DNA of 38,638 bases from Terriglobales bacterium (GTDB taxonomy: Bacteria > Acidobacteriota > Terriglobia > Terriglobales > Acidobacteriaceae). How positions within the stretch are numbered: position 1 is the first letter of the stretch; each line of letters starts with the position of its first letter. The translations under genes and the position numbers were made by a program. Below the pieces are notes generated by a model that made no database searches, was not told the DNA's origin, and saw only the letters and a list, made by a program, of their open reading frames with translations. Positions 891-22,259 of this stretch are shown here, piece by piece. Location of the stretch: contig DASPRM010000160.1 of the NCBI GenBank assembly GCA_035624455.1, positions 1-38,638 of the forward strand, given 5' to 3'.

Positions 891-2129
891 ATGAGCTCCT
901 TGACCTCATGGATTGACCGCACTCTGGAGAGCGTGGTGCGGCGGATTGCGGACCCCATATCCGTTCGGTTCTCGCCGTTTCTAGATCGCACCGAGAATGC
1001 TGCGGTGCAGTCGACTACGCCGGCCGTTCGTATCGCCGATCGACGCACTCTGGTTTCCCTGGCAATGAATCCGGAGGTTGGTTTTGGGGAAGGATATTCG
1101 ACAGGGAAGATTACGGTCGAGGGCGACCTGGTAAGACTGCTCGAAATGACAAGCAAATCACCTTCGCGAACGCAAACCTGGCCGGCACGGCTCTTTTCGC
1201 GGTGGCTGCGGTGGATGCAGGCGAACACGCTGGGAGGATCACGCAGGAATATTCATCACCACTACGATCTGCCGACGGATTTCTACCAACTCTGGCTCGA
1301 CCCCGAGCTGGTCTACACCTGCGCGTATTTTCCTGAACCGACGGCTACCTTGGAGGAAGCTCAGCAGGCGAAACTTGACCTGGTATGCCGGAAGCTGTGG
1401 TTACAGAGTAATGAAAAAGTGGTCGAGGCGGGGTGCGGATGGGGCTCGCTCGCCATTTACATGGCCAGGAACTATGGCGTTCAGGTCAAGGCCTTCAATA
1501 TCTCACGGGAACAAATCGCATTTGCTCGTGAGCGAGCGAAGCGGGAAGGATTAACCAGCCGGGTCGAGTTCATCGAGGACGATTACCGAAATATTCGCGG
1601 GGATTTCGACGTGTTCGCATCTGTGGGCATGCTGGAGCACGTGGGCCGGGAGAACTACCCGGAGCTGGGCCGGATCATTCGCCGCGCCATCGGCGATCGG
1701 GGCCGCGGTCTTCTCCACTTCATCGGGCGCAATTACCACAGACAACTGAGTCCCTGGCTGCGCAAGCATATCTTTCCTGGAGCCTATGTGCCGACTTTGC
1801 GCGAAGCCATGGAGGTGATCGAGCTGCAACATATGGGAGTGCTGGACGTCGAAAATCTTCGCCTGCACTATGCCCGCACGCTCGAGCACTGGCTGGCGGC
1901 GTTCGAACGCTCCTTCGATTCGGTGGTTCGCCGTTTTGGGATCAACTTTGCCCGCACGTGGCGCCTCTACTTGGCGGGGTCGATCGCTGCCTTTCGTACC
2001 GGCTCGCTGCAGCTCTTCCAAATGGTATTTGCCGGGCGGGAGTGCCAGCACATTCCGTGGAACCGCGCGTATCTCTATCAGACTCCTGACGACCGGGAAG
2101 AGGCAACGTGGATTCGTGCGATATCCTGA
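891..2129 (+). CDS. cfa: Cyclopropane-fatty-acyl-phospholipid synthase family methyltransferase
   Basis: This 412-residue, SAM-dependent enzyme of the Cfa/mycolic-acid-cyclase family acts on unsaturated acyl chains of membrane phospholipids, adding a methylene or methyl group across or next to a double bond. The SAM loop is VVEAGCGWGSLA (residues 177-188). Other family landmarks are HHHYDLPTDFY, the YTCAYF cysteine (C144), GMLEHVG with its glutamate, LLHFIGRN, and LRLHYARTLEHW with the tyrosine. These match the active-site and bicarbonate-binding residues known in E. coli Cfa. The length is normal. The ATG has a strong purine-rich Shine-Dalgarno (GGGGGGA). Its last 22 bases overlap the next gene, a GGR-like flavoprotein, so the two are probably translationally coupled and act on the same lipid. 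The sequence alone cannot tell cyclopropanation from methylation. Confidence 0.93.
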   Translation: MSSLTSWIDRTLESVVRRIADPISVRFSPFLDRTENAAVQSTTPAVRIADRRTLVSLAMNPEVGFGEGYSTGKITVEGDLVRLLEMTSKSPSRTQTWPARLFSRWLRWMQANTLGGSRRNIHHHYDLPTDFYQLWLDPELVYTCAYFPEPTATLEEAQQAKLDLVCRKLWLQSNEKVVEAGCGWGSLAIYMARNYGVQVKAFNISREQIAFARERAKREGLTSRVEFIEDDYRNIRGDFDVFASVGMLEHVGRENYPELGRIIRRAIGDRGRGLLHFIGRNYHRQLSPWLRKHIFPGAYVPTLREAMEVIELQHMGVLDVENLRLHYARTLEHWLAAFERSFDSVVRRFGINFARTWRLYLAGSIAAFRTGSLQLFQMVFAGRECQHIPWNRAYLYQTPDDREEATWIRAIS

Positions 2130-3247
2130 TCGTCGGCGGTGGTCCTGCCGGCTCATCCTGTGCCTGGGGACTGCGTTCTTCCAACCTGGATGTGGTCATT
2201 GCCGATCGTGCGACCTTCCCACGCGAAAAGCTCTGTGGCGGCTGGATTACGCCTCAGGTACTACAGGCACTGGAAATCAATCCCACCGAATATGCCAACG
2301 CCGGGAATAGGGACGCTCGCATCCTGCAGCCCATCACGGGATTTCGTGTGAGCTGCCTGGGGCAGCCCGATGTGGCCGTCCATTATGGGCGAGCTGTGAG
2401 CTACGGCATTCGCCGGTGTGAATTCGATAACTATTTGCTCAGACGCTGCGGAGCACGGTTGCGTGAAGGCAAGGCGGTGAACAGCATTGAACAAACCCGC
2501 GATGGCGACATTGTCGTGAACGGCGAGATCAAGACCCGTCTTCTGGTTGGGGCTGGCGGCCATTTCTGTCCGGTTTCCCGTTGGATGGGGAATCACGACC
2601 ATGTGACTCCGGTATTGGCGCAGGAAATCGAATTCGAGATGGATGAGGGGCAGGCTGCCGGGTGTGCGTTTTCCGGCGAAGTACCTGAGCTTTTCTTCTG
2701 CAGAGACATTCGGGGCTATGGCTGGGTGTTTCGGAAGGGGAACTATCTGAACATCGGGCTCGGGCGTCTGGACAAGCACGCTCTCGGCGGGCATATGAGC
2801 GGCTTTGTTCAGTCGCTTCGCAGGGAGGGCAAGCTCGGGTTTGATCTACCAAGCCGCCCTGGGGGTCACGCATACCTTCTCTTCGGGCATTCTCAACGGA
2901 AACTGGTCGGCGATGGCGTGATACTGATCGGCGATGCCGCAGGTCTGGCTTACTCGCAGAGCGGGGAAGGGATTCGCACCGCGGTCGAATCCGGACTGAT
3001 CGCCGCGGAGGTAATCAGGGGAGCTGCGGGTAAATACGGTCGCGAACGCCTTCAGCCGTACATTGAGCATCTGCAGCACCGTTTTCACAACGGGTCGGGT
3101 AAATGGGAGGCGCTGGGTCGCCATGTACCGCGTGCGGTTCGCGATGCGTGCGCGCGCCTGCTGCTTAGAAACCGCCGGTTCTGTCGCGATGTGATCGTGG
3201 AAAGCTGGTTTCTTCACCGTGGCGATCAAGCCCTGAGTTTCAGCTGA
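2108..3247 (+). CDS. FAD-dependent oxidoreductase, geranylgeranyl reductase-like
   Basis: This 379-residue flavoprotein has an N-terminal dinucleotide-binding motif (ILIVGGGPAGSSCAWGL, residues 6-22). The FPREKLCGGWITP segment is typical of geranylgeranyl reductases and related monooxygenases. The second FAD motif is GVILIGDAAGLAYSQSGEGI near residues 270-290. Family members reduce isolated double bonds in isoprenoid or lipid chains, or hydroxylate aromatic substrates. The start is GTG at 2108, inside the end of cfa, with GGAAGAGG six bases before it; the 22-base overlap implies coupled translation. Pairing with a Cfa-type methyltransferase suggests a lipid substrate, but that is inference. 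A second, diverged member of this superfamily lies at 16283-17371. Confidence 0.8.
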   Translation: MDSCDILIVGGGPAGSSCAWGLRSSNLDVVIADRATFPREKLCGGWITPQVLQALEINPTEYANAGNRDARILQPITGFRVSCLGQPDVAVHYGRAVSYGIRRCEFDNYLLRRCGARLREGKAVNSIEQTRDGDIVVNGEIKTRLLVGAGGHFCPVSRWMGNHDHVTPVLAQEIEFEMDEGQAAGCAFSGEVPELFFCRDIRGYGWVFRKGNYLNIGLGRLDKHALGGHMSGFVQSLRREGKLGFDLPSRPGGHAYLLFGHSQRKLVGDGVILIGDAAGLAYSQSGEGIRTAVESGLIAAEVIRGAAGKYGRERLQPYIEHLQHRFHNGSGKWEALGRHVPRAVRDACARLLLRNRRFCRDVIVESWFLHRGDQALSFS

Positions 3248-3254
3248 GTGGACT

Positions 3255-3770
3255 ATGAAAAAGACAACCTGGACAGTTCCGATGTTGGCGGCTTTGACCT
3301 TCGGCCTCCTGCAAGCCCAGACTCAGCAATCGGCGGATGGGCATCAGATAGGCGTAAACAGCCGCGGCGATCACGCGATGGGATTTTCGCACGAAAGGAC
3401 CACTCACCACTTCCGGCTTTATCCGGACGGAGGAGCCATCGAGGTGACAGCCAACCAATCCAGCGATATCGATAGCCGCAACATGATCCGCACACATCTT
3501 TCTCACATCACGAAGATGTTTGCTGCGGGCAATTTCAACACTCCGATGTTTATTCATGACACCGTGCCGCCCGGCGCTACCACGATGTCGGAGCTGCGCG
3601 ATCACATCGATTATCGGTACTCGGACATCCCCGCCGGAGGGCGAGTAAGAATTCACAGCAGCGACCCCACAGCTGTAGCGGCAGTTCATGATTTTCTGAG
3701 TTTTCAAATTACGGACCACAAAACCGGAGATTCGCCGGCGATCACACAAGACCCAGCAGAACGGCATTAG
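3255..3770 (+). CDS. Secreted hypothetical protein
   Basis: This 171-residue protein starts with a signal peptide ([22 protein letters not shown], probable cleavage near residue 21). The mature part is polar and histidine-rich, with the wording [43 protein letters not shown] and [17 protein letters not shown] associate this pattern with a conserved uncharacterised family in Acidobacteria and some other soil bacteria. No catalytic motif is recognisable. It begins seven bases after the flavoprotein stop on the same strand, so it may be co-transcribed with it and with cfa. It is probably periplasmic. The Shine-Dalgarno is weak (GAGTGG). Confidence 0.75.
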
Positions 3771-16282: not shown

Positions 16283-17371
16283 TTACACTCTCGTCCTGTG
16301 CATCAGAAACCGCATTAGTCCCGGCGCGGTGAGCGCGAGCGCGACAGCCTTCCTCAAGCTCGGAGACAGTGGCAGCAGCGATCTCAGCCAACTGGCAATG
16401 CGGAACTTTGCCGCAAAGCGCTCAAGGTACGCCGTCCGATACCCCTCCACAACTTGCGCCAAGCTGGCTCTGCCACAAAAATAAGTTTGCAGATCTCGCG
16501 CTGCCAGGGCTCCGCTGTGAAGTGCCAGGGAGATGCCGTCGCCCAGGAAAGGGTCAATGAACGCCGCAGCATCGCCCACGTTAAGAGTCAGGCCTTGGGT
16601 GGGAACAGGTCTATGAAAGGTCAAAGGAAAGGTTGAAATGGGCTCGATGGCTGACTTCCACTCGCGGCTGCGAGTCCGCAGCTGTGGATCAGCAGCCAAC
16701 ACCTCGTCCAGGCTAGTGGCCATATCTGTGCGCACCACCGCGCTCGTGTTCACTCGGCCGTCGCCGACTGGCTGCACTCCGCAATAGCCTCCCGGAAAAA
16801 AGTAGAGGTCGGTCGAAAAGAAGCCTTCATTAGAGTTAAAGTGACACTTTAAGCCAAGCCACTGCTCCCTATGGGTAAGATCGTCTCGGCGATTGAGGTT
16901 CGACCAACGCCCCGACGCGTTGATCACTGCTCTCGCCCAGACCTTGCCAGCGGAGCTAAGAATCTCGAACCGAGAAGTTCCATTCTGGTGGACGGACTCT
17001 ACCGCAGTCTGTTGCAGACATTTCACGCCTGCGGAGATTGTCGCGCGCCATAGCATGTCATCCAGGACGAAGCGGCTGATGCTGACGCCTGGCGGGTTTA
17101 GTGGGATCTGATAACAGTAACCCTCGGCAAACACGCGAGCGCGATCAATGGTGGAAGCAGACTGCACAAGCGTATTTGCATCGAGCAACCCTCCACACAA
17201 CGACCTTAACAGTGCCAGGGCCTCGGGGGAGACAAATTCCCCGCACACTTTGTGCCGTGGGATGCGACCGCGCTCGAAGAGCACTACGTTCGCACCCGCG
17301 CGCGCAGCGGTGATTGCGGCTGAAGTGCCCGCTGGTCCGCCACCCAGCACTGCCAGATCGAAGTCAGTCAT
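16283..17371 (-). CDS. FAD-dependent oxidoreductase, GGR/monooxygenase-like (second copy)
   Basis: This is a 362-residue flavoprotein. N-terminal FAD motif LAVLGGGPAGTSAAITAARAG (glycines at 10, 11, 12 and 15) is followed by RIPRHKVCGEFVSPEAL, a hallmark of the geranylgeranyl reductase / tetracycline-type monooxygenase group. The second FAD motif is LNVGDAAAFIDPFLGDGI in the last third. ATG at 17371 overlaps the stop of the upstream methyltransferase by four bases (ATGA), so they are co-translated. This gene pair is similar to the tailoring genes next to type III polyketide synthases in many Acidobacteria and Myxobacteria. No such synthase is adjacent here, so the substrate is uncertain. It is only distantly similar to the protein at 2108-3247. 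Confidence 0.82.
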   Translation of the reverse strand: MTDFDLAVLGGGPAGTSAAITAARAGANVVLFERGRIPRHKVCGEFVSPEALALLRSLCGGLLDANTLVQSASTIDRARVFAEGYCYQIPLNPPGVSISRFVLDDMLWRATISAGVKCLQQTAVESVHQNGTSRFEILSSAGKVWARAVINASGRWSNLNRRDDLTHREQWLGLKCHFNSNEGFFSTDLYFFPGGYCGVQPVGDGRVNTSAVVRTDMATSLDEVLAADPQLRTRSREWKSAIEPISTFPLTFHRPVPTQGLTLNVGDAAAFIDPFLGDGISLALHSGALAARDLQTYFCGRASLAQVVEGYRTAYLERFAAKFRIASWLRSLLPLSPSLRKAVALALTAPGLMRFLMHRTRV

Positions 17372-18072
17372 TTCCAGGCAATTACTCCCATTCGGTAAAT
17401 AGCTAGCCGATCCATTTGGATACGACTGGCGTTCGTCTGCTGGAGAAGGGAATATAGTTCCGTCTCAGTGAAGGCCGCGCGAGCGGAAGCAGGAGCGTCA
17501 TGCCAGGTGATGGCGCTGCGGTAGCAAGGCAGGCTGGCGTAGACCAGTGCCACGCATAGGGCAGAGCGGCGGACGTCGTTGATCAGCACCGCGATCCGAG
17601 CCACCCTGAGCGCCTCATTCACAAACTCAACCAACAAATCCGATTCCAGGTGGTGCGCAAACAACGTACAGCCGACGACATCAAAGCTGTTGCTCTGGAA
17701 GGGGATTGCGCAGCCATCGCCAGCAATTCTGCGGAAACCGTTCACATGCCGCTTGCCATTGCCATTGCCATTGTCGACAAAGTTCAAATGAGAGGGCCGG
17801 CGATCCAGCAGCGCAAAATCAATCTTCATTTCCGGCGCCAGGCGTTGCCGGACGATGCTGGCGAAATCTCCTCTGCCCGAGCCGACGTCGAGAAAACTCA
17901 GGTGGTGATGGCCGTTCGCCAGGACAACCTCACGCAACATGTGCACGGTGGTACTGATTCCGCCGAACCAGGAATTGATATGCCGCAGATCGTCCATGGC
18001 GGCGGCGATCTGCCTGGGCGTCCCGGCATCAGCATCGAGCCGCTCGGGAACGAGAATCCGCTTCATAGACAT
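17368..18072 (-). CDS. Class I SAM-dependent methyltransferase
   Basis: This is a roughly 234-residue enzyme with a well-formed motif I (LSFLDVGSGRGDFASIV), IDFALLDRRPSHL (motif II), IAGDGCAIPFQSNSFDVVGCTLFAHHLE (motifs III/IV, shown in two short pieces: IAGDGCAIPF and SFDVVGCTLF) and IAVLINDVRRS (post-motif). An N-terminal segment PERLDADAGTPRQIAAAM resembles methyltransferases that I associate with type III polyketide clusters. Starts are uncertain: ATG at 18072, ATG at 18066 and GTG at 18087 all lack a clear Shine-Dalgarno. A short Asn/Gly repeat (NGNGNGKRHVNG) interrupts the middle. It is co-transcribed with the flavoprotein that follows. The substrate, perhaps a quinone, pyrone or lipid head, is inferred only. 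Confidence 0.78.
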   Translation of the reverse strand: MSMKRILVPERLDADAGTPRQIAAAMDDLRHINSWFGGISTTVHMLREVVLANGHHHLSFLDVGSGRGDFASIVRQRLAPEMKIDFALLDRRPSHLNFVDNGNGNGKRHVNGFRRIAGDGCAIPFQSNSFDVVGCTLFAHHLESDLLVEFVNEALRVARIAVLINDVRRSALCVALVYASLPCYRSAITWHDAPASARAAFTETELYSLLQQTNASRIQMDRLAIYRMGVIAWK

Positions 18073-18152
18073 AAAGCTTGATCGCACCGGATCGCGCGAT
18101 TGTCGGCGAGGCGTAAAAAGATTGTCATCTCTTTCTGGAGGGTCATGGGCAG

Positions 18153-19895
18153 CTATACGGTTTCCAGCTCTTCTTCCAGCAGTTGCTTGTCGTAAAGATC
18201 GGCGTAGTAGCCTTTCCGGGCGAGCAATTCCTCGTGTTGACCGAGTTCGACGATGCGTCCCTGGTGGAGCACCGCGATCTGGTCGGCATGGCGAACAGTG
18301 GAAACACGATGAGAGATAAAGATGGTGGTGCGTCCCTGCATTACCTCACGCAGGTGGTCGAGAATCTTTTCTTCGGTGTAGGTGTCGACGCTCGACAGCG
18401 CATCATCCAGAATCAGAATCCTGGGATTACGGATCAAGGCCCGGGCGATAGCGGTTCGCTGTTTTTGCCCACCCGAAAGGGTGATGCCGCGCTCGCCCAC
18501 GATGGTCTGGTATTGTTCGGGAAATTCTTGGATGTCAGCCGCAATGCTGGCGCCAGCGGCAGCCTGCTGCACTTGCTCGAGGGTTGCGCGCTCGGCGCCA
18601 AAGGAAATGTTCTCGCGGATGCTGTCGCTGAACAGAAAGGTCTCCTGCGGCACGAAACCGATGCAGTGACGCAACAATTCAAGGTGGAAATCGCGGATAG
18701 GGCGGCCATCGATGAGTACCGATCCGGGCGGCGCATCGTAGATTCGCGGAATCAGATTCACCAGCGTCGATTTTCCCGATCCTGTGGGTCCGACAATGGC
18801 CAGGCTGCTGCCGGCAGGAATACGGAGGTTGATATCGCGCAGCACCGGCGTGCCGTTATAGCCGAAGTTGAGGTTGCGAAATTCGATTTCGCCGTTCACA
18901 ACAGCCGGGCGAGCTTGAGCCGCAGGACTATCCCTGATTTCTGGCTTTTCGGTCAGAATCTCGTTGATGCGTCCCATGGAAGCGGTACCGCGCTGGAAAA
19001 TGTTGATCACCCAACCCAGAGCAATCACCGGCCAAGTGAGCTGAACCATGTAGGTGTTGAAGGCTACGAAATCACCCACTGTCATGCGGCCCAGAAGCAC
19101 TTCGCGCCCGCCAAGCCAGAGGACCAATACCACAGCTAAACCGAGCAGCACTTCCAGGGTAGGCCAGAGCATTCCCATCAGCCGCACCAGCTTCAGGCTA
19201 CGCGCGATATATTCGCGGTTCGCATTTTCAAAGTTGGCGATCTCCGGTCCTTCCTGGGCGAAGGCGCGGATGATGCGGGCGCCAGAGAAATTCTCCTGTG
19301 CGCGCGCCGAGATTTCGGAAAACATGGCCTGGATACGCTCGAAGCGCTGATGAATGCGAGTACCAAAGTACTGCACCACGATGCTCACGATGGGGAGGGG
19401 CAAAAACGCGTAAAGCGTAAGCTTCGGACTAATGCTGATCATGAAGATCAGCGCCCCGGCGGTGAACACGATGGTGTTTGCCGAGTACATGATGGCCGGG
19501 CCCAGCAACATGCGCACCGCATTGAGATCGTTGGTGGCGCGAGCCATGATGTCGCCGGTGCGGGTTCGTTGGTAGTAGGAATAGGAAAGCGTCTCCAGGT
19601 GATGGAAGAGATCGTTGCGCAGGTCGTACTCGATGTCGCGCGAGATGCCAATCACGATCCAACGCGTTAGAAACTGAAACACGCCTTTCATCAGAGCGAC
19701 GCCGATCAGCAGCAGCGAATAGCGGATCAGCTTCTGCGAGGTGACCCCGGCATTCAGCGCATCAACGGCATTGCGAATTATGAGGGGGAAAAGAATCCAG
19801 ATACCATTGGTCAAGAAGATCGCGAGTGTTCCCCAGAAAAAGCCACCTCGGTACTTGCGAAAATAGGGGAAGAGAGGCCGCAGCTGCTTCAGCAT
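18153..19895 (-). CDS. ABC exporter half-transporter with atypical Walker B
   Basis: This 580-residue type IV ABC exporter half contains six transmembrane helices (about residues 15-300) fused to one ATPase domain. The ATPase motifs are Walker A GPTGSGKST (about 369-377), Q-loop FVPQETFLFSDSI, signature LSGGQKQRTAIARAL and H-loop IFISHRVSTV. The Walker B is LILDDALSSVDT: position 498, normally a catalytic glutamate, is aspartate. That substitution marks the non-catalytic half in heterodimeric exporters such as TM287/288 and BmrC/BmrD. Only one half is visible here. It starts 42 bases after the lptFG stop and is probably in the same operon; a glycolipid or lipid substrate is possible. No strong ribosome site precedes the ATG. 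The resemblance to MsbA is at family level only. Confidence 0.9.
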   Translation of the reverse strand: MLKQLRPLFPYFRKYRGGFFWGTLAIFLTNGIWILFPLIIRNAVDALNAGVTSQKLIRYSLLLIGVALMKGVFQFLTRWIVIGISRDIEYDLRNDLFHHLETLSYSYYQRTRTGDIMARATNDLNAVRMLLGPAIMYSANTIVFTAGALIFMISISPKLTLYAFLPLPIVSIVVQYFGTRIHQRFERIQAMFSEISARAQENFSGARIIRAFAQEGPEIANFENANREYIARSLKLVRLMGMLWPTLEVLLGLAVVLVLWLGGREVLLGRMTVGDFVAFNTYMVQLTWPVIALGWVINIFQRGTASMGRINEILTEKPEIRDSPAAQARPAVVNGEIEFRNLNFGYNGTPVLRDINLRIPAGSSLAIVGPTGSGKSTLVNLIPRIYDAPPGSVLIDGRPIRDFHLELLRHCIGFVPQETFLFSDSIRENISFGAERATLEQVQQAAAGASIAADIQEFPEQYQTIVGERGITLSGGQKQRTAIARALIRNPRILILDDALSSVDTYTEEKILDHLREVMQGRTTIFISHRVSTVRHADQIAVLHQGRIVELGQHEELLARKGYYADLYDKQLLEEELETV

Positions 19896-19937: not shown

Positions 19938-22259
19938 TTACGTGGGAACCTTCAACAGGAGATACCCCCCTGCCAATCCGAACAGCAGGTCGGGGGACCA
20001 GGCGGCCAATGCGGGGGGCAGCTGGCTTGCGTTTCCCATGGCTTCAAAAAACCCCATTCCCACCCAGTAAATAACCGCTATGCCGATGGCCATGGCCACG
20101 CCCGCCAATGCGCCGCGACGCCCGGAGGACAGCGCGAAAGGAACCGCCAGGATCGCCATGACAAAGGTCATTAAGGGGAAGGCAAATTTCTTATGCAGCT
20201 GCACTTTCAGGCGAACGACATCAAATCCGCTCTGCTGCAGGTCGCGAATGTAGCGCCGCAGTTCTTCATAGCTCATTTCTGAGGATTGCTTTACTTCTTT
20301 CTTAAAATAAGCCGGCGGTTCATTGAGTTCGTTGAAGGTGGCTACCTCGAAGGGGCGGAACTCCTCGACCTTGGTCGCCTCGAAGCTGCGCGTCCATCCC
20401 TGTTCGAAGATCCAGCGCTGCAGCAAATCGGACCAATGGGCATGATTGGCATGAATGCGTCGCGTCATCTGAAAGGTGTGGGGATCGAATTCGAAGGCGG
20501 TAATGCTCGCGAAGCGGTTCTGATCGGGATCAAAGAATTCGTAGTAGTAGATAGTGGAGTGTTGGCCAAAAATCCACTTGCGGTCCGGACGCAGGTAAGT
20601 CTGCGCTGGCTTTCCTTTGATCTGGTTGCGCAGCGAATCCTGGCGCTTGTTCAACTGCGGCAGGTATAGCTGGTCAAAGAAGAAAAGGCCGACAGCTACG
20701 ACGGCGGCCAGCATCAGCACGGGCATCACTACCCGATAGATGCTTACGCCAGTGGCTTTCATCGCCGTGACTTCGTTCGATTTCTGCAGCAGCCCGAAGG
20801 TCACCAGCACCGCCAGCAGCATGCTGATGGGAGTCGTGTTGTATAGGAAGTAGGGAGTGACGGTCAGCAGATATTCGCCGACCAGGGCGAGGGGGACGCG
20901 AGTGATGTCCTTGAGCAGTTCGAAGAAAGTGAAGACCAGGAGCAGGATCAGAAACGTTCCGACAATCATTCCCAGGTACACCGCAAAATCGCGCAGGATG
21001 TAGTCGTCGAGCAGCAGCGGAAAACGGGCGCTGAAGACGCGTTTGCGGGAGATGGCGCGCTCCAGAGCGCCGCTTACCCTGTCACCGAAGACCGGGGGCC
21101 GGTGCTGGATCTGCTGAGTTAAGCGGCCCCAGAAGCCGCGCAGACTGCCGATCTCGAGCGGCATGCGGTCGACACGCCAGAACAGGATCAGCCCGGCCAC
21201 GAAGAACACGAGGTTGGCCATCCACATCGCCAATCCCACAGGCAATTTGGCGTGCTGCGCCAGCGACATACCCGACAGGGACAGGAAGTAGTAGAGAAAT
21301 ACGAGAGCGATAGTGAGGACGAAGCCGGTGGACTTCCCTCCTTTTTTGGCTGACAGGCCGAGGGGAATTCCTACCAAAGCCAACACCAGGCAAGCGGTGG
21401 GCAGGGCAAAACGGCGATGAAATTCGATCAGATAACTGCGCTGTTTGTTGGCCTCAATATGTTCCGCTTTGTGGCGTAGCTGCGCAGTGGGGACCTCCAT
21501 GGCCGGAGTAGTTTGCTGTTGCGGCTGCTGGCTGCTGGTGGGCAGTTGCAGAGGAATATCGCTCTCGGCGAAGGTTGAGATGGAGTACTGCTGTAGATCG
21601 TGAGGGTCAGTCTCGTGCGAAGAACCATCTTCCAGGTGGAACCGCAGTTTATCCTGGCCTTCATTCACCACCATGCCGCGCTGGGCCATGGTGATCTTAG
21701 GCGCGGAAGGATCGCTGATGTCGGCCAGAAAAACCCCTTTCCAGCGCGCTGCGCCCTCTCCGCTCGTGGCATCCTGAACGTATAACACCAGGTCCTTAAA
21801 ATCTTCATAGAAGACGCGCGGCTGGATCTCGAACGAAACCTGCGAACTCTTTAGCCGGTTCTGCAAATGCGCCAGAGCGGCCGCCGAGCGGGGCGCGACC
21901 ACGACGTTGTTGAGCAACGCCAGCAACCAGGCGGAGACAGCAAAAATGGAGATCACGCGCAACACCATCCCCGAACCCAGGCCGCTGGCGCGCATGGCGG
22001 TAACCTCGCTATCAGCGGCAAGCCGGCTCAGACCGATGAGGATGCCCACTAGCACTCCCATCGGAATAGTAAGCGTCAGGGCCGTGGGGAGTGTGAAGAA
22101 GAAGATTTCCGCAACACTGGGAAGGGGAGCGCTATTGCGCACGACCAGCTCCAAAATTCGGGCGAGGTCGCGCATGAAGATGACGAAGGTGAAGATAGAT
22201 GCCCCGATGAGGCCGTGAGAAAGGACCTCGCGCAGGATGTACTTGGTCAGAATGCGCAT
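19938..22259 (-). CDS. LptF-LptG fusion, lipopolysaccharide transport permease
   Basis: This 773-residue protein joins the two permease subunits of the LptB2FG complex in one chain. The first half (about 1-370) looks like LptF: three N-terminal helices, the motif GVLVGILIGLSRLAADSEVTAMRASGLG, the periplasmic beta-jellyroll region (about 135-290) and three C-terminal helices with ALVGIPLGLSAKKGGKSTGF. The second half (about 405-773) resembles LptG: LDDYILRDFAVYLGMIV, then SNEVTAMKATGVS, a periplasmic domain, then VPFALSSGRRGALAGVAMAI. A loop of 30 or so residues joins the two. LptF and LptG are separate genes in proteobacteria. The predicted role is extraction of lipopolysaccharide from the inner membrane, with LptB encoded elsewhere. 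GAGGAA lies eight bases before the ATG. Motif strings here are given whole for recognition only. Confidence 0.9.
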   Translation of the reverse strand: MRILTKYILREVLSHGLIGASIFTFVIFMRDLARILELVVRNSAPLPSVAEIFFFTLPTALTLTIPMGVLVGILIGLSRLAADSEVTAMRASGLGSGMVLRVISIFAVSAWLLALLNNVVVAPRSAAALAHLQNRLKSSQVSFEIQPRVFYEDFKDLVLYVQDATSGEGAARWKGVFLADISDPSAPKITMAQRGMVVNEGQDKLRFHLEDGSSHETDPHDLQQYSISTFAESDIPLQLPTSSQQPQQQTTPAMEVPTAQLRHKAEHIEANKQRSYLIEFHRRFALPTACLVLALVGIPLGLSAKKGGKSTGFVLTIALVFLYYFLSLSGMSLAQHAKLPVGLAMWMANLVFFVAGLILFWRVDRMPLEIGSLRGFWGRLTQQIQHRPPVFGDRVSGALERAISRKRVFSARFPLLLDDYILRDFAVYLGMIVGTFLILLLVFTFFELLKDITRVPLALVGEYLLTVTPYFLYNTTPISMLLAVLVTFGLLQKSNEVTAMKATGVSIYRVVMPVLMLAAVVAVGLFFFDQLYLPQLNKRQDSLRNQIKGKPAQTYLRPDRKWIFGQHSTIYYYEFFDPDQNRFASITAFEFDPHTFQMTRRIHANHAHWSDLLQRWIFEQGWTRSFEATKVEEFRPFEVATFNELNEPPAYFKKEVKQSSEMSYEELRRYIRDLQQSGFDVVRLKVQLHKKFAFPLMTFVMAILAVPFALSSGRRGALAGVAMAIGIAVIYWVGMGFFEAMGNASQLPPALAAWSPDLLFGLAGGYLLLKVPT

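Follow-up and report, generated by a model that had tools for sequence, protein, structure and literature searches.

A conserved pair of Cfa-type methyltransferase and geranylgeranyl reductase-like genes from an acidobacterium is probably a tmpBA operon for 10-methyl fatty acids

We analysed a stretch of 38,638 nucleotides from a Terriglobales bacterium of the Acidobacteriota (assembly GCA_035624455.1, contig DASPRM010000160.1, positions 1 to 38,638), hereafter called the window, in which a gene for a TmpB-like Cfa-family S-adenosylmethionine methyltransferase (gene 1; 891..2129, plus strand) runs directly into a gene for a TmpA-like FAD protein of the geranylgeranyl reductase (GGR) superfamily (gene 2, protein P0002; 2108..3247, plus strand). 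These two genes probably constitute an acidobacterial tmpBA operon that makes 10-methyl fatty acids. In the proposed pathway, the enzyme encoded by gene 1 would methylate mono-unsaturated acyl chains of phospholipids to a 10-methylene (exo-methylene) product. The GGR-like flavoprotein (TmpA), a putative reductase of this methylene intermediate, would then reduce its C=C bond using electrons from FADH2, as its archaeal relatives do with isoprenoid double bonds, and the end product would be a saturated 10-methyl, that is mid-chain branched, fatty acid. What we infer here comprises the methylene product of the first enzyme, its reduction, the chain length, the branch position and the presence of 10-methyl lipids in the organism.

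The tmpBA (ten-methyl palmitate) operon was described in M. hydrocarbonoclasticus and T. halophila and sought in Desulfobacteraceae (Blitzblau et al. 2021, PMC7791843; this and all other papers are cited from excerpts). In E. coli, 10-methylenepalmitate was obtained with four of five tmpBA operons, and TmpB of both M. hydrocarbonoclasticus and T. halophila gave the methylene product; TmpA is similar to the geranylgeranyl reductases of archaea and is regarded as a putative methylene reductase, and the type TmpB/BfaB enzymes acted on chains of C14-C20 with a double bond at delta-9 to delta-11 (PMC7791843). In the literature searched, this paper alone deals with tmpBA in this sense. The pair in the window has the same gene order, first the Cfa-type enzyme and directly downstream the GGR-like flavoprotein (order B, A). 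Nine Marinobacter loci with the same operon were found in a scan of named genomes, among the best 80 of 538 confirmed loci, which are the nearest relatives; their Cfas are 47.6-52.3% and their flavoproteins 49.3-51.3% identical to those of the window, and both window proteins are orthologous to the Marinobacter pairs. In five Marinobacter genomes searched as a whole, the sole match to P0002 at E<=1e-10 adjoins a close Cfa, which gives one close pair per genome, and each of these genomes has one or more additional Cfa-family genes that are remotely related (33-40% identity). Since Marinobacter, the genus of a described tmpBA, thus carries the same operon with a single close pair in each genome searched, we place the pair of the window with tmpBA. 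It differs in its origin from Acidobacteriota (and also Planctomycetota), groups that are not named in the excerpts of PMC7791843, and in the overlap of 22 bases, which is typical of the acidobacterial branch.

Gene 1 starts with ATG and encodes 412 amino acids, gene 2 starts with GTG and encodes 379 amino acids, and by their open reading frame (ORF) coordinates both share the 22 bases from 2108 to 2129 on the plus strand. A purine-rich, Shine-Dalgarno-like GGAAGAGG for gene 2, recognised by eye at 2096..2103 (plus strand) and hence within gene 1, ends four bases ahead of the GTG. The product of gene 1 is a PF02353 (CMAS) protein with 257.7 bits, and the solved structures nearest to it by sequence are cyclopropane synthases. 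Residues C139, E239, H266, I268 and Y317 of E. coli Cfa are retained as C144, E249, H276, I278 and Y327, so that we are dealing with a Cfa-type methyltransferase that has the bicarbonate-site residues; C139 and I268 of E. coli Cfa we take to be active-site positions. The cut-offs of the curated cyclopropane synthase models (NCBIfam equivalogs) are missed with 271.9 vs 400, 319.2 vs 600 and 257.7 vs 650 bits. In the genome as a whole, no PF02353 match except gene 1 is strong (259 bits for gene 1; 27.4 bits for the second best, at a cut-off of 27), and therefore no other enzyme is expected to make cyclopropanes. The genome also encodes one fatty-acid desaturase, which resembles acyl-CoA desaturase 1 and is a plausible source of the delta-9 substrate for the gene 1 enzyme.

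For the product of gene 2, the best family is TIGR02032, the geranylgeranyl reductase family, with 145.2 bits, just under the model cut-off of 158.8. Its AlphaFold model (mean pLDDT 95.3) has the geranylgeranyl-reductase fold, with Thermoplasma GGR as the best match in the PDB (3oz2; Z 35.8, rmsd 2.6, 345 residues aligned), followed among others by the FixC-like 7koe_C (Z 34.5) and GGR 3atq (Z 32.0). The FAD motifs GGGPAG and GDAAG are kept across alignments of gene 2 homologues. The cut-offs of the prenyl and menaquinone reductase models are not reached (BchP-ChlP 90.5 of 343.3, MenJ 80.7 of 700, DGGGPL reductase 41.3 of 580 bits). As the fold is also close to FAD monooxygenases and halogenases, it does not fix the redox direction. 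An earlier sequence-only reading of this DNA had recognised the Cfa-type methyltransferase, the GGR-like character of the second protein, the 22-base overlap and the Shine-Dalgarno sequence for the second gene inside the first, and all four observations are borne out by the data given above.

The same reading had made its proposal dependent on co-occurrence of the two genes across genomes, and the pair is indeed conserved. In 100 genomes of the window's family, its own genome among them, flavoprotein matches at E<=1e-20 occur in 13, eight of them close (at least 53% identity) and five remote (30-34%), and a Cfa gene adjoins the close flavoprotein in seven of the eight. The Cfa search in this family sample gave matches in 38 genomes; the seven close ones (at least 490 bits) are the same seven with the adjoining flavoprotein, and the remaining 31 genomes have remote Cfas only (at most 217 bits). 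A mutual exclusion of close and remote Cfas was considered and dropped, as the absence of genomes with both at E<=1e-20 (0/100) is not significant (p = 0.07). In a sample of 297 genomes of the phylum, which has two genomes in common with the family sample, the flavoprotein was found in 19 genomes at E<=1e-30 and in 16 at E<=1e-78; 15 of these 16 have a Cfa of at least 381 bits, adjacent in every case (15/15), and among the 297, a Cfa of this strength never occurs in a genome that lacks the flavoprotein. The other three flavoproteins (loci L044-L046) adjoin more remote Cfas. With both samples taken together, the pair is present in 20 of the 22 genomes that have a close flavoprotein.

The best 80 of the 538 named loci comprise, by title, 25 Acidobacteriota, five Planctomycetota, 48 Beta-, Gamma- or unspecified Proteobacteria, one member of the Deltaproteobacteria and one of the Lambdaproteobacteria. 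In 79 of them a same-strand Cfa gene precedes the flavoprotein gene, including one (L092) with a remote Cfa of 32% identity; in the 80th, the contig end leaves just 168 upstream bases. After removal of four identical repeats, and with start codons chosen by script, 98 distinct pairs were available, whose genes overlap in 67 and overlap or lie within 50 bases in 94; the exact overlap of 22 bases is found in 30 of the 98, the window included. The range of the pair covers Acidobacteriota, Planctomycetota, Beta- and Gammaproteobacteria, i.e. at least three phyla, while the flanking genes vary: when ORFs were crudely called in the fetched DNA that surrounds the pair, no other flank family occurred in more than seven of 87 loci. 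Given a Cfa next to the flavoprotein in 20/22 genomes and 79 of the best 80 named loci, and an overlap of exactly 22 bases shared by 30 of the 98 pairs, the arrangement is not due to chance and the pair is a conserved two-gene unit. A conserved third gene, as a separate candidate, was rejected, since the most frequent flank families, present in seven of 87 loci, all come from Marinobacter. Carriage on plasmids was searched in 72,556 plasmid records, nine of which match the flavoprotein, none of them closely (29.9% identity for the best-ranked).

The distances among the Cfas and among the flavoproteins are correlated over 97 pairs, including four duplicates (Mantel r 0.77; best of 999 permutations 0.26), and over the 94 pairs that are left without three outliers (r 0.81; best permutation 0.07). 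We built a FastTree phylogeny from 196 Cfa rows (191 distinct), with 94 core paired rows (90 distinct) and 96 unpaired rows (95 distinct); the remote or odd rows L195, L244 and L245, the remote, long-branched Cfa of L092 and nine repeat fetches (L235-L243) stood outside it. Adjacency of a GGR gene to the unpaired Cfas was checked in the surrounding fetched DNA, which was between a few hundred bases and roughly 5 kb long. All 94 core paired rows, that of the window among them, form one side of a branch with a support of 100, and none of the 96 unpaired rows falls inside. In an earlier tree, in which two unpaired rows (L128, L136) were out of frame, the paired rows as a whole did not form one side of a branch, with L045, L046 and L092 standing among the unpaired rows. 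The pairs apart from the core clade make up two small groups, namely L044 on the one hand and L045, L046 and L216/L247 on the other. The latter are three genomes of one acidobacterial genus; their Cfas share 50-53% identity with E. coli Cfa, and their flavoproteins are 33-38% identical to that of the window over the main aligned part, the L216/L247 match being split over two frames. For these outlier pairs, either the Cfa may have been exchanged or the pairing may have arisen twice.

Threonine in place of E. coli Ser138, just before Cys139, was tried as a mark of methylene-forming Cfas and rejected. All 94 core paired rows have the replacement, as do two BfaB-like proteins and the outlier pairs L044-L046 and L092; all 20 unpaired Cfas of the family have serine. 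Threonine is also present, though, in six of the 96 unpaired rows. Five of these are plasmid Cfas that resemble the E. coli enzyme (Burkholderia, Halomonas, Sphingobium, Comamonas, Enterobacter), and the sixth is a further Cfa from Marinobacter santoriniensis. Once L195, L244 and L245 are added, threonine is present in eight of 99 (threonine in L244 and L245, serine in L195). The residue therefore occurs in every reductase pair examined and is not sufficient as a mark. It was the threonine in L216 that pointed to an adjoining GGR-like gene missed by the search at E<=1e-30. A second replacement, asparagine for Thr197 (E. coli numbering), does not vary among the 94 core rows; each of the 20 unpaired Cfas of the family has threonine there, and the unpaired, E. 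coli-like Cfa L199 has asparagine as well. Many of the 96 unpaired rows have glutamine at the position of His276 or serine or alanine at that of Cys144, so that they have to be taken as Cfa-family proteins and not all as cyclopropane synthases of proven type. The gene for the further M. santoriniensis Cfa (L246, 4762-5922), whose product is 56% identical to E. coli Cfa, adjoins genes for a SulP transporter and a universal stress protein.

Compared with other known systems, the pair shares its two-step logic with the bfaAB operon of Actinomycetota, which consists of the methyltransferase BfaB and the FAD oxidoreductase BfaA. In a Tsukamurella locus, which by its gene make-up we assign to bfaAB, the BfaB protein is also a PF02353 member. 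The BfaA-like protein, by contrast, belongs to FAD_binding_4 (PF01565), an unrelated flavoprotein family, and its gene precedes that of the methyltransferase; PF01565 gave no match in P0002 at E<=0.001, which means that gene 2 does not encode a BfaA-type partner. With E. coli Cfa, gene 1 has the fold family and the bicarbonate-site residues in common, but the Cfa of the window lies in a separate clade, and Asn203 is present in 94/94 core paired rows as opposed to threonine in E. coli. The archaeal GGRs 3oz2 and 3atq resemble gene 2 in fold (Z 35.8 and 32.0) and FAD motifs and differ from it in sequence (about 20% identity; GYIWVFPKG in 3oz2 vs GYGWVFRKG in the window) as well as in context, since gene 2 is partnered by a Cfa and not by a prenyl-lipid gene.

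Several observations weigh against the assignment to tmpBA. TmpA was inactive in E. coli and yeast, and no 10-methyl product appeared (PMC7791843); the identity with the experimentally tested TmpBA proteins is deduced via other Marinobacter species. The unpaired Cfas used for comparison are mostly of unknown product and, as judged from the alignments, the tested residues alone do not decide between cyclopropane and methylene formation. Besides, two genomes have the flavoprotein without a Cfa. G004 (L020, 8542-9729) contains an intact homologue with 55% identity and no Cfa at E<=1e-20 in a genome that is 99% complete, and by its sequence this is a lone TmpA-like gene; G164 has a flavoprotein gene with one internal stop in a genome that is 83% complete. 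In-frame stops are also present in both genes of L047 and in the flavoprotein gene of L038 in these assemblies.

The alternative that survives best, although we regard it as unlikely, is that gene 1 encodes an ordinary cyclopropane synthase and that the flavoprotein has a separate job, for instance as an isoprenoid or menaquinone reductase, and is co-transcribed by accident. All bicarbonate-site residues of true Cfas are kept, the flavoprotein scores weakly on the BchP-ChlP and MenJ models, and the two genomes with a flavoprotein and no Cfa would fit as well, but the curated Cfa, MenJ and BchP-ChlP cut-offs are all missed by far and the paired Cfas make up a separate clade. An accidental neighbourhood is also hard to reconcile with a linkage that persists over at least three phyla despite changing neighbours, and the paired Cfa is not simply the sole Cfa at hand, given the remote Cfas in each of the five Marinobacter genomes.

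In furan fatty acid synthesis, the Cfa-like methyltransferase UfaM works together with the flavin desaturase UfaD. By analogy, the flavoprotein of the pair could oxidise instead of reduce and introduce a desaturation beside the methyl group, which we consider very improbable. The proximity of the fold to FAD monooxygenases and halogenases speaks for such a role, and so does a Thioalkalivibrio strain that has 10-Me-C16:1 delta-9 besides 10-Me-C16:0 (PMC8092127); on the other side, the best structural and profile matches are reductases, and the group in which tmp was searched had been picked for its saturated 10-methyl palmitate (PMC7791843).

The pair might instead act on the membrane-spanning (iso-diabolic) lipids of Acidobacteriota or on branched glycerol dialkyl glycerol tetraethers (brGDGTs; those with 5-methyl branches are made by Candidatus Solibacter usitatus and Edaphobacter aggregans), methylating and saturating them to give 5- or 6-methyl branches. 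This fits the phylum and the view of the sequence-only reading that the methylases of such lipids are not settled, a question on which our literature searches turned up no paper, yet it is hardly credible in view of the same operon in Marinobacter and Planctomycetota and of the type TmpB/BfaB substrates (PMC7791843). A general role in membrane-spanning lipids is further disfavoured by the patchy distribution, with a close flavoprotein in 8 of 100 family genomes. Hence the hint of that reading at the methylation of membrane-spanning lipids is not supported, while its core, a Cfa and a GGR-like enzyme acting together on mid-chain methyl-branched lipids, is probably right given the conserved pair and the tmpBA precedent.

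If the pair is a tmpBA operon, its occurrence bears on the use of 10-methyl fatty acids as signature lipids: a soil study books 16:0 to 20:0 10-methyl fatty acids as actinomycetes (PMC11052253), 18:0 10-methyl is taken for Actinobacteria (PMC4009868), and a review assigns 10-methyl-16:0 to sulfate-reducing bacteria (PMC10150655). In Thioalkalivibrio versutus grown at 30 °C, 10-Me-C16:0 accounts for 19% of the fatty acids, and none was detected in T. nitratis (PMC8092127); one Thioalkalivibrio metagenome-assembled genome (L098, among the best 80 of the 538 named loci) carries the pair. No report that ties tmpBA or 10-methyl fatty acids to Acidobacteriota was found in the literature searched, a scope that excluded most subscription journals and the supplements of PMC7791843, and the excerpts of PMC8092127, PMC11164329, PMC10150655, PMC4009868, PMC5552659 and PMC11052253 give no 10-methyl fatty acid for an acidobacterium. 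Systems of this kind have been published since 2021; our analysis adds their occurrence in Acidobacteriota and Planctomycetota and the near-strict pairing over several phyla.

Taken more broadly, we see an even chance that tmpBA enables Acidobacteriota and Planctomycetota to make phospholipid fatty acids with a 10-methyl branch and that GGR-type flavoproteins have been recruited to exo-methylene reduction more than once. The latter is suggested because the Cfas of L045, L046 and L247 (about 50% identical to E. coli Cfa) adjoin a distant GGR-like gene outside the main clade. If this is true, 10-methyl lipids in soil and sediment would not be a safe marker for Actinobacteria or sulfate reducers, and signature-lipid profiles would need another reading if abundant soil Acidobacteriota make these fatty acids. 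The wide and nearly always paired distribution also offers many orthologues in which TmpA activity can be sought. Since several hosts of pair orthologues are aerobic, oxygen sensitivity would be a less likely and a missing electron donor a more likely cause for the failure of TmpA in E. coli and yeast.

Around the pair, a glycoside hydrolase-like gene (by eye) lies upstream on the opposite strand. The next ORF downstream (3255-3770, plus strand, 171 amino acids) has a signal-peptide-like N-terminal stretch by eye and gave no match in Pfam and NCBIfam searches. A promoter scan yielded no signal exceeding that of shuffled sequence. Upstream of the Cfa gene, two imperfect direct repeats of 15 bases stand head to tail (819-833 and 834-848, 80% alike), with a third copy by eye at 849-863, 27 bases before the ATG of gene 1; together, these repeats (819-863) are possibly the site of a regulator. 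Finally, the window contains a second, unrelated pair on the minus strand (16283-18087), in which a Methyltransf_11-type methyltransferase and a GGR-superfamily flavoprotein (TIGR02032 128.8 bits, below the cut-off) overlap by four bases. It adjoins genes for an MsbA-like ABC exporter (18153-19895) and LptF/LptG (19938-22259) and may be another lipid-modifying pair.

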